This document shows positions 498-22,640 of a DNA stretch of 64,000 nt, one piece after another. The DNA lies in the NCBI RefSeq assembly GCF_949820605.1, contig NZ_CATKVU010000006.1:1782501-1846500 (forward strand), given 5' to 3'. Position 1 is the stretch's first letter. Every line of letters begins with the position of its first letter. The position numbers and the translations under genes were made by a program. Source of the stretch: Segatella copri. GTDB taxonomy: Bacteria; Bacteroidota; Bacteroidia; Bacteroidales; Bacteroidaceae. The notes under the pieces were generated by a model. That model was given only the letters and a program-made list of their open reading frames with translations, had not been told where the DNA came from and did not search any database.

Positions 498-1223
498 TTA
501 ATCAGTTAGACCTTTCTGAGGGTCGAAATCCTCAGGTACTTCAGTTACGATGATAGGCTCCTTGTGTCCGAGCTTCTCGCTGTCAGAGAGGTTCTCGTTG
601 CTCAAGCCGCGAAGGCCACCCTTGCTCATAGAGAGTTCCTTCTCATCCTGGGTCATCTTGTGGTTGGCACCACCGAAGAATTTCTCAACCTTTACCTTAC
701 GCTGCAACTGCATCATACCGTAAAGGATAGCCTCAGGGCGTGGAGGACATCCAGGAATGTAAACATCCACAGGAACCAACTCGCTGATACCACGAACCAC
801 GTTGTAGCTCTTCTTGAACGGACCGCCAGAGATGGTGCATCCACCTACAGCTACCACATACTTAGGCTCAGCCATTTCATCGTACAAACGTTTGAAAACA
901 GGTGCCATCTTATTGGTAATAGTACCGGCACACATGATCAAGTCTGCCTGACGTGGAGAGTTACGGGTTACCTCGAAACCGAAACGGGAGAAGTCGTAAC
1001 GCGCACAACCTACAGCCATGAACTCGATACCACAGCAAGAGGTACCGAAGGTCAAAGACCAGAGTGAGTTACTGCGTCCCCAGTTGATGGCAGCATCAAG
1101 GGAACCGACTACCACATTCGCACCACCCTCATTGAGCTCCTGCGCAATCTTTTCGAGGGTATCATTGTCCTTAAACTCGTCGTAAGGAATACTCTTGATA
1201 GAGGCTCTTTTGTTTACTTCCAT
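498..1223 (-). CDS. nuoB: NADH-quinone oxidoreductase subunit B
   Basis: Complex I subunit carrying the terminal 4Fe-4S cluster N2 that passes electrons to quinone. Cluster ligands are visible: the tandem Cys in TSCCGIEFMAVGCARYDF, the Cys of VAVGGCTISGG and that of PGCPPRPEAI. The C-terminal extension after the core (about 60 residues, charged) is longer than in E. coli NuoB. The start was set at the ATG at 1221-1223 because an AAAGGAG ribosome-binding site lies 7 bases upstream; a TTG start seven codons earlier (1244) would put that site inside the gene. The chosen start overlaps the nuoA stop by 10 bp, indicating translational coupling. Confidence 0.95.
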   Translation of the reverse strand: MEVNKRASIKSIPYDEFKDNDTLEKIAQELNEGGANVVVGSLDAAINWGRSNSLWSLTFGTSCCGIEFMAVGCARYDFSRFGFEVTRNSPRQADLIMCAGTITNKMAPVFKRLYDEMAEPKYVVAVGGCTISGGPFKKSYNVVRGISELVPVDVYIPGCPPRPEAILYGMMQLQRKVKVEKFFGGANHKMTQDEKELSMSKGGLRGLSNENLSDSEKLGHKEPIIVTEVPEDFDPQKGLTD

Positions 1224-1564
1224 TCCAATGCTCCTTTCCGCCAAGCGTATGCAAGGCCAAATACCAATACCAACAGGAAGAACCCGATGCTCACGAGAGC
1301 CATAGATCCAAACTGCTTAACTACGACTGCCCATGGGTAAAGCAATACTGTCTCGATGTCAAACATCAGGAAAAGGATGGCGAAGAGGTAGTAGCCGATG
1401 TGTGATGGCAACCATGAGCTGCCACGAGTCGGAATACCGCACTCAAAAGGTTCACCCTTTACCGGATTGTATGAACGAGGACCGATCAACTTCGCGATGA
1501 CATAAGCAGCCACCACCAAGGTTACAGCCGTCAGCAAAACGGTGATAAATAGTGTAAAGTTCAT
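1214..1564 (-). CDS. nuoA: NADH-quinone oxidoreductase subunit A
   Basis: Small membrane subunit of complex I, 116 aa, usual length. Three hydrophobic segments are visible (about residues 3-25, 58-80 and 85-107), with the conserved loop FECGIPTRGS and the acidic FDIETVLLYPWAVV motif typical of NuoA/ND3. It is the first gene of the operon. A Bacteroidetes promoter box lies about 45 bp upstream, and the 3' end overlaps nuoB. Confidence 0.95.
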   Translation of the reverse strand: MNFTLFITVLLTAVTLVVAAYVIAKLIGPRSYNPVKGEPFECGIPTRGSSWLPSHIGYYLFAILFLMFDIETVLLYPWAVVVKQFGSMALVSIGFFLLVLVFGLAYAWRKGALEWK

Positions 1565-1953: not shown

Positions 1954-2006
1954 TTCTACAAAGCATCCGGCTCTTCCGGGGGAAGAAGATAGTTCGCTGG
2001 AGAATT

Positions 2007-2427
2007 CAGATGTTTGAATAAGCAGAAGATTATGATTGAATAAGCGTATTCAGATGTTTGAATAAGCGAAAGGATATGATTGAATAAGCGAAAGAAGACG
2101 TTTCTTTGGGTTAAAAGAGACGTCTCTTTTAGTTTTAGGAGACTGCTTCTCGAGTTGAAGGAGACTGCTTCTCGAAGGTTGCCACTAGGCTCAGCAGACC
2201 TGCTGAGCCTAGTCAGCAGCTCTGCCGACTGCAGTCAGCAGGTCTGCCGAGCCTAGTGACAACACCTTTTAATCGTACAACTACAACCCTTATAGTCGTA
2301 CAACCATACACCCTATAGTCGTACAACTATAAACCCTTTAGTTGTACAACTATAAACCCTTTAGTTGTACAACCATAAACCTTTTAGTTGTACAACCATA
2401 TACCTTTTAGCTGTACAACCATAAAAC
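2007..2427. repeat. Mosaic tandem array of nineteen 22/23-bp modules
   Basis: Non-coding array in the 938-bp dNK-nuoA spacer. It can be cut into 19 consecutive modules of 22 or 23 bp whose sequence changes along the array. 2007-2094 has four copies of a GATTGAATAAGCG-type unit. 2095-2183 has four GACGTCTC or GACTGCTTCTCG units. 2184-2271 has four GC-rich CTCAGCAG/GCCTAGT units. 2272-2427 has seven GTACAAC-type units. Many modules carry a dyad, for example AGTTGTACAACT and AGACGTCT, and 2184-2213 is a perfect 14-bp stem with a 2-nt loop. The 22-bp unit is not a multiple of three, so it is not coding. The rest of the spacer (1620-1770 and 1954-2006) shows nothing recognisable. Confidence 0.85.
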
Positions 2428-2471
2428 GCAACCCCGCCAGGCGTTCCTCCTTTGACGCCTAGCGGGGTTGC
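2428..2471 (-). terminator. Rho-independent terminator after the deoxynucleoside kinases
   Basis: A 10-bp stem (GCAACCCCGC with GCGGGGTTGC) extends inward by AGGCGT/ACGCCT across a single mismatch. A TTTT run follows on the minus strand and TTTTT on the plus strand, so it can act in both directions. Confidence 0.8.
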
Positions 2472-2501
2472 GCTTTTTACTTTTTTACCTTTAAAAGCCC
2501 T

Positions 2502-3128
2502 TTAAACTCCTTTTTCAGCAAACAGGCCGAAGAGCTCAGCATCTATCAGGTCTGTAACCTTTCGGAAGTCTTCCGGACTCTCTCCAAACTCCAGATTATC
2601 ACCATCGATGATGATGAGGCGACCTTTATAATCCTTGATCCAATCCTCATAACGCTTGTTCAAACCCTGGAGGTAATCGATACGGATGCTCTTCTCGAAA
2701 TCGCGGCCACGCTTCTCGATATGCTTTACGAGCGTAGGAATGCTGCTCTTGATATATATCATCAGGTCTGGGAGTTTCACCAGACTGATCATCAGATCGA
2801 AGAGATCGGTATAGTTTTTGAAATCCCTGTCGCTCATCATACCTATATCATGAAGATTAGGCGCAAAGATACGCGCATCCTCGAAGATGGTTCTATCCTG
2901 TACGATGGTCTGCTCAGAACGTGAAATCTCCACAACATCATGGAATCGCTTGTTCAGGAAGTAAATCTGAAGATTAAACGACCAACGTTCCATATCCTTG
3001 TAATAATCAGCCAGATATGGATTATTATCTACCGGCTCGAAATTAGCTTTCCAGCCATATCTCTTGGCAAGCATCTTGGTTAATGTTGTCTTGCCGCTAC
3101 CTATATTTCCTGCTATTGCTATATGCAT
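2502..3128 (-). CDS. Deoxynucleoside kinase, second of a tandem pair
   Basis: Phosphorylates salvaged deoxynucleosides in the cytoplasm. The 208-aa protein has the dNK/dCK-dGK fold signatures: P-loop GNIGSGKTT (7-15), EPV (31-33), the DRTIFE substrate/catalytic motif (78-83) and the lid KRGRDFE (139-145). It lies 26 bp after a close paralogue (3155-3772), and both start with nearly the same 20 residues. Tandem related dNKs with different base specificity that form heterodimers are known in Lactobacillus; whether this pair does so is inference. Specificity cannot be read from the sequence. Confidence 0.85.
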   Translation of the reverse strand: MHIAIAGNIGSGKTTLTKMLAKRYGWKANFEPVDNNPYLADYYKDMERWSFNLQIYFLNKRFHDVVEISRSEQTIVQDRTIFEDARIFAPNLHDIGMMSDRDFKNYTDLFDLMISLVKLPDLMIYIKSSIPTLVKHIEKRGRDFEKSIRIDYLQGLNKRYEDWIKDYKGRLIIIDGDNLEFGESPEDFRKVTDLIDAELFGLFAEKGV

Positions 3129-3772: not shown

Positions 3773-3848
3773 TTATTTTTAATGTTTAATGTTTAATGTT
3801 GAATGTTGAATTTTTGATGCGATACCACCCTCAATTCCACATTGGCTG

Positions 3849-7867: not shown

Positions 7868-7967
7868 ATTAATGTTGAATGTTGAATGTTGAATGTTGAA
7901 TGTTGAGTATAAAATGCACATTGGACTAAAGCCAATTTAACATTCAACATTCAACATTCAACATTTA
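7868..7967. repeat. Heptamer-repeat inverted pair between mannanase and GH130
   Basis: Four copies of ATGTTGA (about 7871-7899) face three to four copies of the complementary AACATTC unit (about 7939-7964) across some 40 bp, giving a possible stem of about 25 bp in the intercistronic RNA. Related heptamer runs lie at 3781-3812, 6533-6553 and 29505-29528. Confidence 0.75.
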
Positions 7968-19902: not shown

Positions 19903-20090
19903 TACATGCCATTTTTTTTAGAATTTGATGCAATTTATCTAAACTAAACTTTCGCATGTGATTTAAGTACGGGCTGAAGGCCGTTTCTGTGTTGGCCTCA
20001 TGTTTGCCTTCAACTCTGCCTTCTTCCATACTTCCGGGAAAAGTTGCTGAAAAAGTTTTATGGTTGCATGCAAGCACATGAAGAAGAATA

Positions 20091-20376
20091 CTCAAGTGGT
20101 TCAGTCAGCTAACTCAAGTGGTTCAATCAAGCAACTCAAGTAGTTCAGTTAGCGAGTTCAGACGTCTCTGTTAGCTGATGCAGACGTCTCGATAAGCTTA
20201 CAGATACGTCTCCGTTAGCCTACGCAGCCATATTCGTAACCCGATGCTGCCATATTCGTAACCCAATGCTGCCATATCCGTAACCCGACGCTGCCATATT
20301 CGTAACCCTACGCAGCCATATTCGTAACCCTACGCAGCCGTATTTATAACCCGATGCAGCCGTATTCGTGAATAAG
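20091..20376. repeat. Mosaic tandem array of thirteen 22-bp modules
   Basis: Thirteen consecutive modules of exactly 22 bp. 20091-20156: three CTCAAGTGGTTCAGT-type units. 20157-20222: three AGACGTCTC...TTAGC-type units. 20223-20376: seven GCAGCCATATTCGTAACCC-type units. Neighbouring modules grade into each other while the period stays fixed. It shares the AGACGTCTC core with the array at 2007-2427. Not coding. Confidence 0.85.
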
Positions 20377-20510: not shown

Positions 20511-20620
20511 GGTTATCCCTCACAATATTCTCACTACACATTACCAGATACTGCATATCATTGTTGAAACACTTGCGATAGTTCAAATGAGGCTCACTTG
20601 AATCTGGACAGGATGTATCC

Positions 20621-20708
20621 GAAATTACATCGCGACGTATCTGGCGCTGCGTCGTGACGCGTCTGTTATCACGTCGGGACGTACCAGATGCTACGTCGGG
20701 ACGCAATT
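20621..20708. repeat. Third 22-bp array, four ACGTC-NN-GACGT modules
   Basis: Four consecutive 22-bp modules (20621, 20643, 20665, 20687), each with a dyad core such as GCGTCGTGACGC or ACGTCGGGACGT. The period equals that of the array at 20091-20376. Confidence 0.75.
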
Positions 20709-20977
20709 TCGGGAACAGCATTGGAGATTATACGGGAAAAACAGCATCAAAAACAATAGGCATTGAACCGAAAAAACGCCTTTTTGCTCAATGCCTCCTG
20801 CCTTTTGCCTCAAAAACACCGCTAAAAATCACCAAAAACACCTAAGTATCGCTATTTTTATGGCAATATATGGCAGATTATGGCAATTAAAAAGCTATTG
20901 CAATATCGGTATCAACTAACAATCAGGCTGTTACCAGCTTATATGGCAATATGGCAATTCTTTTACGAAAAAAAATC
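20709..20977. other. Non-coding spacer with TATGGCAAT repeats
   Basis: Gene-free stretch before the AAA ATPase stop codon. It holds several scattered copies of ATGGCAAT or ATGGCAGAT (about 20860-20890 and 20941-20958). No promoter or gene is recognised. Confidence 0.4.
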
Positions 20978-22345
20978 CTACAGAAGTCTTTCACCACAAG
21001 AAAACAAGTTAGAAATAGCATAAAGAGGATTGACTAATATCTTCTTCCCTTTTGGGCTGACAAACTCCCCAAAGTTCTCCAAAGAACAGCGAATGGCATA
21101 CTTAATATGCTCTTTTTCCATAAAAACATAAAGACTCGCCATCGAACCTCGTAAACCAGACTTCACTTCCATCGGAACAATGTCAATGCCACGAGACAAG
21201 ACATAATCGACCTCCGAAACGGTTCCACGAGTCAAGTTTTGCCAATAGTATAAGTCATGGCGCTCATTAGGCGACATATACTTTAGTAATTCCAATCCTG
21301 CCACCATCTCCGTCAAACTACCCTTATCAACTAAGTCTGCAGCATTGTCAACCAATAGTTCTTTCACTATAGAATTAGTAGAGTCTCCTATTCCTAACAG
21401 ATTGAGGAGAAAGCCATGATCTATCAGATTATACTTCACAAACTTCGGATTAATCTCTGCACCAAGCGGAATGCCATTTGCCGCAGTATGCCATACAGGT
21501 ATAATGATACCAGCATCTCTAAGCATCTCCAAAGCATTCTTGACTTGCGCAGTCGTATATCCCCCTTCCACTTGGCTAAACACGAATTTACTCCCCACTT
21601 GATGAGCCACACTAAACAATGTTTGACGCAGCAAAACAGGATTGACCTTGGCTTTATATTTCACGAAATCATCTATATAAGTTTGCTTCAACTCACTAAG
21701 CACAGAGTCTACTTCCAAATAACTATTCGTATCAACGTACTTAGCCACAGCAGCAGGCATACCACCTATAAGCAAGAATGAACGAAACCTCTCCACTAAT
21801 CGCTCATAGAAGACATTCATCAATGGCTTTTGAGAGGTTGCATTCCGTTTCATACTTACCAATCCATCATCACCTAAAGCATAAAGGAATTCATCAAAAG
21901 ACATCGGATATACAAACATCGAACGGATACGCCCTACTCCATAAGCACCTAAATCCTTCAATGCAAATTCCAATAGCGATCCAGCCGCCACTACATGAAG
22001 TTCAGGATAATCTTCCTTGAAAAACCACAAGCTATGGATGGCATTAGGGCATGCCTGTATCTCATCTAAGAACAACAAGGTTTTGCCAGGAATAACGGGA
22101 ACTTTGAAATATGCCGACAATTGCTCCGAAATAAACTTCACGTTTAAATCGCCATCAAAGAATTCCTTGACAGTCTTATCACGCTCAAAGTTCACTTCCA
22201 AGAAATAAGGAAAGGACTCTCCCAAGTGTCTAATGGCACTTGACTTACCTACCTGCCTTGCTCCTCTCACAAGCAATGGTTTATGCTCTACAGAACTTTT
22301 CCACGCTTCAAACTCTTTATCTATTTGTCTTTTCAGATACTTCAT
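20978..22345 (-). CDS. AAA_14 / DUF4143 family ATPase
   Basis: 455-aa cytoplasmic protein of a family common and patchily distributed in Bacteroidetes. N-terminal P-loop ATPase with Walker A GARQVGKS (about 29-36), Walker B LLFLDEIQ (about 89-96) and a sensor VAAGSLLEFAL. The C-terminal DUF4143 domain has a PD-(D/E)xK-like core: SEVDYVLSRGIDIVPMEVKSG. The function is not established. It stands alone between repeat-rich spacers, and the tandem 66-bp repeats directly upstream carry promoter-like boxes, suggesting an independently acquired unit. Confidence 0.85.
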   Translation of the reverse strand: MKYLKRQIDKEFEAWKSSVEHKPLLVRGARQVGKSSAIRHLGESFPYFLEVNFERDKTVKEFFDGDLNVKFISEQLSAYFKVPVIPGKTLLFLDEIQACPNAIHSLWFFKEDYPELHVVAAGSLLEFALKDLGAYGVGRIRSMFVYPMSFDEFLYALGDDGLVSMKRNATSQKPLMNVFYERLVERFRSFLLIGGMPAAVAKYVDTNSYLEVDSVLSELKQTYIDDFVKYKAKVNPVLLRQTLFSVAHQVGSKFVFSQVEGGYTTAQVKNALEMLRDAGIIIPVWHTAANGIPLGAEINPKFVKYNLIDHGFLLNLLGIGDSTNSIVKELLVDNAADLVDKGSLTEMVAGLELLKYMSPNERHDLYYWQNLTRGTVSEVDYVLSRGIDIVPMEVKSGLRGSMASLYVFMEKEHIKYAIRCSLENFGEFVSPKGKKILVNPLYAISNLFSCGERLL

Positions 22346-22368
22346 ATCTCTATATTATTGATTTTCAA

Positions 22369-22511
22369 TGCAAAGATAATGCAAACGAGTGCAATGAAAG
22401 CTTGCTTTCTGATTGCCGAGTGCAGCTTATCTTATGCAAAGATAATGCAAACGAGCGCAATGAAAGCTTGCTTTCTGATTGCCGAGTGCAGCTTATTTTA
22501 TGCAAAGATAG
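22369..22511. repeat. Two tandem 66-bp repeats plus a partial third, with promoter boxes
   Basis: Units 22369-22434 and 22435-22500 differ at only two positions; a third starts at 22501. Each begins TGCAAAGATA, whose complement holds the -7 box TATCTTTG pointing at the AAA ATPase, and contains the dyad GAAAGCTTGCTTTC. So up to three promoter-like boxes are stacked at 22378, 22444 and 22510. Confidence 0.85.
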
Positions 22512-22551
22512 CACTTTTATCTGAATAAAAGCCAATCAATTAAGCTTTTTT

Positions 22552-22640
22552 ATAAAAAAGTCAGAGGTTATTTGAAGCTAAATTACAAAAAAGTCAGAGG
22601 TTTTTTGATGTTAAATTATAAAAAAGTCAGAGGTTTTTGT
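22552..22640. repeat. Three copies of a 33-bp repeat
   Basis: AAAAAAGTCAGAGGTT recurs with exact 33-bp spacing (TCAGAGG at 22561, 22594, 22627), with a TTAAATTA linker. No open frame. Fills the gap between the 66-bp repeats and the GH5 terminator. Confidence 0.75.

Follow-up and report, generated by a model that had tools for sequence, protein, structure and literature searches.

The stretch of DNA analysed here, referred to below as the window, comprises 64,000 nucleotides of a Segatella copri contig and carries three tandem arrays with a repeat unit of about 22 bp (Table 1). The spacer between a deoxynucleoside kinase gene and nuoA holds array 1, which an earlier sequence-only reading had divided into 19 modules of constant length and changing sequence. 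The modular register and the change of sequence along it are both confirmed, with four unit types in succession, but the number is not, as we count about 18 modules (4+4+3 at ~22 bp and 7 at 23 bp). Two further arrays noted by that reading are also real, and one of them, array 2, has the AGACGTCTC core in common with array 1.

Table 1. Arrays of the window, their component blocks and the genes next to array 1 (positions are those of the window)
Feature	Position	Strand	Description
Array 1	about 2004-2430		Four block types in register, ~18 modules
Array 1, block 1	2012-2099		GAATAAGC-type 22-bp units x4, counted by eye
Array 1, block 2	2090-2175		AGACGTCT / GAGA.....TCTC dyad units x4, counted by eye
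Array 1, block 3	2179-2262		Three TCAGCAGnnCTGCTGA dyads at 22 bp (2191-2256), TCAGCAG-type
Array 1, block 4	2270-2430		TAGTYGTACRACTA dyad (GTYGTACRAC), 23-bp units x7
Inverted repeat followed by T run	2427-2472		End of array 1; predicted terminator-like element
Array 2	20090-20376		22-bp units: CAAGTGGTTCA, three AGACGTCTC, about seven GCAGCCATATTCGTAACC
Array 3	20619-20712		Four TRCGTCSSGACGYA dyads at 22 bp (20621-20708)
Deoxynucleoside kinase (PF01712)	2502-3128	-	Neighbor of array 1
NADH dehydrogenase chain 3, nuoA (PF00507)	1214-1564	-	Neighbor of array 1

Block 2 of array 1 is built of AGACGTCTC-type units spaced at 22-23 bp. The dyads of block 3 are enclosed by a 12-bp outer inverted repeat (2179-2190 / 2251-2262), and this block type occurs six times in 2 Mb of the nearest relative compared (G001), five times with three units and once with four. 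Array 3 consists of four TRCGTC..GACGYA dyads in 88 bp within an outer inverted repeat, CCGAAATT/AATTTCGG; its dyad is found in 12 matching chains in 2 Mb of G001, six of them with four units. Array 3 is a quartet, and array 1 is a composite of such blocks that also behaves as a variable-number tandem repeat (VNTR). The lag-22 segment scores of arrays 1, 2, and 3 are 81, 152, and 21, compared to a simulated maximum of 18.5 (mean 10.1) in 300 first-order Markov runs covering all noncoding DNA of the window. A related segment scorer returned six window segments at lag 22, one each at lags 21 and 23, and none at lags 17-20 and 24-27.

Several other features of the window were observed. Just before array 1, at 1860-1960, lies a short open stretch that, by a visual translation, ends in GGIFISRQKG and might be left over from the C-terminus of a secreted protein. 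A 66-bp tandem repeat at 22368-22510 (97% matches, 2.2 copies), followed by a 33-bp repeat at 22550-22639, is located directly upstream of an AAA_14/DUF4143 ATPase gene (20978-22345, minus strand). An intergenic stretch of ~40 bp at 19940-19982 matches the 2 Mb of G001 at more than 15 places. Heptamer repeats (AATGTTG, ATTCAAC, TTTAATG) are present at 7871-7965 and 3778-3819 and may partly account for the excess at 7, 14, and 21 bp in G001.

Of the 31-mers sampled from the window, 26% are also present in G001, and the window kinase is 100% identical to its counterpart there and 97% identical to that of a named Segatella copri genome. Relative to the window, array 1 in G001 has one GTAC unit more (eight vs seven) and one GAATAAGC unit fewer, and array 2 has one unit more. 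The alignments cover window blocks of about 34 kb and contain seven indels of at least 8 bp between the two genomes; three of them amount to one repeat unit each (22, 23, and 22 bp), and the other four measure 16, 31, 12, and 9 bp. Differences that break the alignments, such as ~200 extra bases between the kinase and array 1 in G001, lie outside this count. Because of these single-unit indels, arrays 1 and 2 count as ordinary VNTRs as well, with a unit copy number that differs between strains; array 3 contains no indel of 8 bp or more. The possibility of ordinary VNTRs raised by the sequence-only reading thus applies to the first two arrays. Its proposal that new modules are templated from old ones is supported in S. 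copri only as ordinary local unit copying, consisting of one-unit gains and losses and local homogenisation.

Presence of the arrays also varies. An array of this kind is missing from the kinase-nuoA spacer of S. copri Indica (L133), and P. denticola has ~560 more bases, including an array, between two aligned stretches that in P. veroralis and P. vespertina are separated by 13-14 bases, a difference that either insertion or loss would fit. Near-identical GTACGAC arrays were also seen on two S. copri DSM 18205 plasmid records (3001-3109 in both L031 and L032), where they adjoin an amidase / smalltalk / HU gene cassette.

The sequence-only reading had staked its case on an excess of 22-bp periodicity in other spacers, and such an excess is present in G001 and most Prevotella samples. 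Noncoding tandem arrays detected by TRF in 2 Mb of G001 number 17, 56, and 10 at periods of 21, 22, and 23 bp, with 2, 3, 4, and 5 at periods 17-20 and 4, 2, and 1 at periods 24-26; periods 7-10 and 14 are likewise common, and S. copri arrays also occur at 21 and 23 bp. Arrays classed as coding, which lie within ORFs of at least 100 aa, mostly have periods that are multiples of three and show no peak at 21 bp, although seven are found at 22 bp vs two each at 20 and 23 bp. Perfect two-copy noncoding duplications in G001 number 13 at 22 bp vs 0-4 at 17-21 and 23-30 bp.

Pairs of identical 7-mers in noncoding DNA recovered the same period. Given as the number at lag 22 over that at the median lag, the counts are 1054/80 in G001, 140/7 in Prevotella F0039, 72/3 in P. 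nigrescens, 54/3 in P. vespertina (G004), 46/3 in G011, 40/4 in G017, 24/1 in five oral Prevotella loci (one overlapping G004), and 21/2 in Phocaeicola. Parabacteroides plus Bacteroides yielded 9/2, with a higher count at lag 23 (15), and rumen Bacteroidales contigs 76/12, with higher counts at lags 52, 34, and 21. No peak was evident in Prevotella G010 (12/11), in 50 kb of S. copri DSM 18205 plasmid (3/1, with no 22-bp array by TRF), or in 100 kb of E. coli (1/0, with zero segments by the segment scorer). G010 instead shows a strong 14/21/28-bp periodicity in which 14 and 21 dominate. The segment scorer returned 38 segments at lag 22 in F0039 vs 0-1 at ten other lags (17-21, 23-27), 17 vs 0-2 in P. 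nigrescens, and 8 vs 0-5 in nine other Prevotella loci; G001 had 67 at lag 22, 42 at 21, 19 at 18, and at most 14 elsewhere, and G010 had 2 at lag 22 vs 13 at 21. The 22-bp arrays are genome-wide in G001, form a real, sharply phased intergenic class in most Prevotella samples, and are represented by a few arrays in other Bacteroidales; the three arrays of the window belong to this class.

The structure of these arrays is clearest in F0039, sampled as seven 50-kb pieces (350 kb) of NC_022111.1, where an iterated position weight matrix (PWM) identified 148 units with the consensus TAAAAGCA.TGCTTTTA. The spacings among 202 noncoding PWM hits are 22 bp (109), 44 bp (71), 66 bp (38), and 88 bp (6), and the remaining distances up to 100 bp together account for 27. 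The matrix was trained on units that have a neighbor at 22 bp, and independent spacing controls therefore weigh more. A pair of F0039-type dyads at 22 bp occurs in 10 of 119 genomes (213 and 53 in the relatives G056 and G013, 9 in G062, 5 in G015, and one each in six others), compared to 0, 0, 1, and 0 pairs at 21 bp in G056, G013, G062, and F0039 and none at 23 bp in the same four. The GTYGTACRAC pair at 23 bp has 41 occurrences in G001, and two further genomes of the 119 have one each. The P. nigrescens pair was found 12 times in its own record, five times in G056, and once each in G013 and F0039, and was absent from the remaining 8 of the 12 searched; from its five occurrences, G056 seems to possess a second dyad type. 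Among the G056 matches printed, the dyad is fixed and the linkers are variable and mostly GC-rich. Linker identity in F0039 is 0.39 between adjacent units, 0.36 between non-adjacent units, and 0.35 between chains; since linkers within a chain are hardly more alike than those of different chains, no templating of modules is visible there. The dyad sequence is clade-specific while the 22-bp spacing is kept.

Similarity among the S. copri units is limited. Within a set of 30 units, 11 pairs share at least 14 of 22 positions, vs 3.6 +- 2.0 in shuffles, a weak excess on which a common ancestry of the unit families was not retained. The dyads that the sequence-only reading had seen in many modules are present in some blocks but are not general: in a test of 62 non-redundant 22-bp unit consensuses, most from G001, eight were significant at p<=0.05 vs 7 of 70 in control periods, and a dyad was accordingly rejected as the common denominator of all 22-bp units. 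A search for helical phasing inside units found no W/S frequency below p 0.05, and 1 of 11 R/Y frequencies reached p 0.02.

The number of sites per array is often four. Exactly four units are present in 29 of 39 F0039 chains, with two units in four chains, three in three, and five in three. A rerun gave 31/38 and looser rules gave 27/55 or 25/63, so that the four-unit share depends on the rule while the mode remains four. Within the four-unit chains, the four slots average PWM scores of +16 to +18 and the flanking slots about -15 to -18, where the chain rule itself forces a score only below +5. In P. vespertina/veroralis (AAGAGAGGCCTCTCTT-like units), four were counted in 13/17 chains (one place counted twice) or in 10/27. 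S. copri family C (GCACAACAGCTGTTGTGC) has four in 6/6 or, under a stricter rule, 4/6, and family B3 has four in 7/16, or 5/9 with the window included. Two P. denticola, two Phocaeicola, and one Parabacteroides arrays have about four units by eye. Other families differ: five units are present in nine of 16 G017 chains and four in six, G011 has 3, 4, and 5 units in 4, 3, and 3 cases, P. nigrescens has four in 7/19, the S. copri TCAGCAG type has three in 5/6 chains, and the GAGACGTCTC families of array 2 reach up to 14. A motif-free unit counter gave mostly 5-8 units per array without a peak at four, and was judged to overcount by chance runs. Four is the mode in several families and is not universal.

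The median distance of F0039 chains is 58 bp to an ORF end and 200 bp to an ORF start. Set against the spacers of at least 88 bp, the chains number 14 for 60 (++), 10 for 37 (--), 8 for 26 (convergent), and 6 for 23 (divergent), and show no orientation preference. Arrays in S. copri were found in 17/79 convergent vs 8/124 divergent spacers of at least 200 bp, and in 10/130 and 15/103 of the two tandem kinds.

The arrays might instead be minisatellite-bearing elements resembling the MITE BrickBuilt, which would spread non-autonomously, multiply their units by slippage, and carry a 22-bp period that is inherited or mechanically favoured. We consider this unlikely. Copies of S. copri families A, B, and C are found at several loci in the same order and with the same flanks, units change in number by one between strains, and the absence of the kinase-nuoA array from S. 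copri Indica and the ~560-base excess of P. denticola over P. veroralis and P. vespertina would fit mobile elements; the available part of the BrickBuilt report (PMC4596501) provides a precedent in a Bacteroidales species. Families A2 and B3, which include window arrays, have outer inverted repeats in common when compared by eye. Against this reading, F0039 chains possess neither common linkers nor an outer inverted repeat, and the period is common to unrelated unit sequences in most Prevotella samples. In-frame coding duplications also lack a 21-bp peak, notwithstanding the excess of coding arrays at 22 bp. No outer inverted repeat was detected in F0039 or P. vespertina with exact edges, and little in a rough-edge scan, so it was discarded as a general feature.

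Alternatively, the arrays could function as RNA, forming hairpins in 3' untranslated regions that act as terminators, mRNA stabilisers, or RNase III substrates; this appears to us quite improbable. The arrays do lie closer to gene ends, and on both strands the folds of four elements (the quartet at 20612-20718, the block at 2164-2270, one Phocaeicola element, and one Parabacteroides element) are much stronger than those of shuffles, with z from -4.0 to -10.1 (-8.0 and -10.1 for the block), but arrays of palindromes are expected to fold in this way in any case. Watson-Crick pairing at the seven mirrored positions of the F0039 dyad was never significantly above that of shuffled partners (lowest p 0.08). 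The flanking Y/R bases (T-A 56, T-G 39, C-A 25, C-G 8; Fisher p 0.10) show no association in the direction of pairing. As changes in one arm are not compensated in the other, hairpins are unlikely in F0039, and the uncompensated arms together with unconserved linkers favour double-stranded DNA read half-site by half-site. Whole-element symmetry is absent from the linkers and flanks of F0039 and P. vespertina, and at gathering thresholds no Rfam family matched the window. In some B3 elements of S. copri, linkers 1 and 3 resemble reverse complements of each other when judged by eye. In five quartets the linker 1/3 identity is 0.47 vs 0.17 for linkers 1/2, and is not above that of exchanged same-family pairs (0.46), a weak null for related copies. 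Such elements may be long MITE-like palindromes.

Clade-specific, intergenic, high-copy palindromes would also suit REP-like selfish elements moved by a Y1 transposase (RAYT/TnpA-REP), and RAYT subclass 2.6, according to the available part of PMC6006769, is found mostly in Bacteroidetes, flanked by atypical structures that are copied elsewhere in the genome. We regard this origin as very doubtful. The transposase domain PF01797 is present in 5 of 14 genomes or records (G001, G010, G011, G015, and G017). No match was found in F0039 (a 1.77-Mb record), G056 (81% complete), G013, G004, G062, or four smaller records, these being single records that may lack replicons, and the RAYT link is thus unsupported for the five quartet-bearing genomes without the domain. 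The uncompensated arms of F0039 also speak against it. Both the simple minisatellite and the REP/RAYT readings fail tests in the large families. An enzyme producing 22-bp tandem duplications whatever the sequence, as the peak of perfect two-copy noncoding duplications in G001 might indicate, is highly improbable, given the missing 21-bp peak in in-frame coding duplications and the fact that the units of F0039 quartets are not recent duplicates.

Taken together, we give an even chance to the 22-bp arrays being phased sites, most often four dyads in 88 bp, for a putative oligomeric DNA-binding protein. Of the two ideas put forward by the sequence-only reading, module templating and a phased protein-binding or nucleoid element, the second, which stays putative, is the better supported, by the two-turn spacing, the conserved dyads, the unconserved linkers, the uncorrelated arm changes, and the stop at four sites in several families. 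What is observed is the spacing itself, four as the commonest count in several families, conserved dyads with unconserved linkers and uncompensated arms in F0039, a clade-specific sequence, and an intergenic placement away from gene starts. Each dyad would be bound by one protein dimer, and approximately four dimers on one face of the helix could form one unit, e.g., an octamer with DNA wrapped around it or lining it. Such a unit might organise the nucleoid, insulate, or act as a roadblock. In S. copri, several such families would have been turned into dispersed composites whose units also expand and contract as VNTRs, and array 1 of the window would be one of those composites.

A number of observations stand against phased sites. 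Most S. copri consensuses lack a significant dyad, arrays 1 and 2 are VNTR-like, and S. copri arrays also exist at 21 and 23 bp. Four units are not universal and chain length is rule-dependent. F0039 chains have no orientation preference, and G010 and the S. copri plasmid piece lack a 22 peak. Long hairpins in several S. copri, Phocaeicola, and Parabacteroides elements would be superfluous for DNA sites.

More tentatively, the phased-site model could be extended to a chromosome organiser across the Bacteroidales, in which a putative fast-evolving multimeric protein would dock on 88-bp elements of four dyads, the geometry being kept as protein and sites change together. F0039 has about one quartet per 9 kb, located between genes. 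The sampled species have the spacing in common, and several families the site number as well, whereas the sequence of the sites changes from clade to clade. Repeats like these, lying between genes, are readily dismissed as minisatellites. If they are read by a protein, dominant bacteria of the gut and mouth would possess a DNA-binding system working at genome scale, and its sites and specificity would be a clear example of co-evolution. Quartets of dyads spaced at 22 bp provide an in silico test that can be applied to any genome.

The titles and abstract openings returned by searches of open-licence literature, BrickBuilt and REP papers among them, yielded no description of 22-bp quartets in Prevotella. 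Known systems offer partial likenesses. Lrp/AsnC octamers are tetramers of dimers that wrap DNA, and a protein of this architecture would account for four equally spaced dyads. The AsnC/Lrp domain PF01037 has matches in 7 of 9 genomes or records and none in the single records of F0039 (NC_022111.1) and P. nigrescens, for which another replicon may exist; the F0039 record thus lends no support to Lrp as the binder. Plasmid iterons and cooperative operator clusters are likewise binding sites repeated at about two helical turns; unlike these, the arrays described here occupy many chromosomal loci per genome. A dyad followed by a 4-8-bp linker differs from the repeat-spacer layout of CRISPR. REP/BIME elements and their RAYTs share the intergenic, clade-specific, high-copy palindromes, as far as the available parts of PMC3733652 and PMC6006769 describe them, while the present arrays differ in their fixed 22-bp spacing, usually several sites, uncompensated arms (in F0039), and the lack of a Y1 match in F0039 and G056. 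The nearest published likeness found is BrickBuilt of Porphyromonas gingivalis, which the available part of PMC4596501 describes as a 23-nt minisatellite in an intergenic MITE, with 41-, 23-, and 22-nt repeats mentioned for P. gingivalis W83. Like the arrays studied here, it belongs to the Bacteroidales, is intergenic, and has tandem units of about two helical turns, many copies, and a variable unit number (PMC4596501, same part). According to that account, BrickBuilt is a single element with a leader, a tail, terminal inverted repeats, and 1 to 22.8 units; unlike it, the arrays described here comprise many unrelated dyads, have a mode of four units in several families, and share no outer repeats in F0039.
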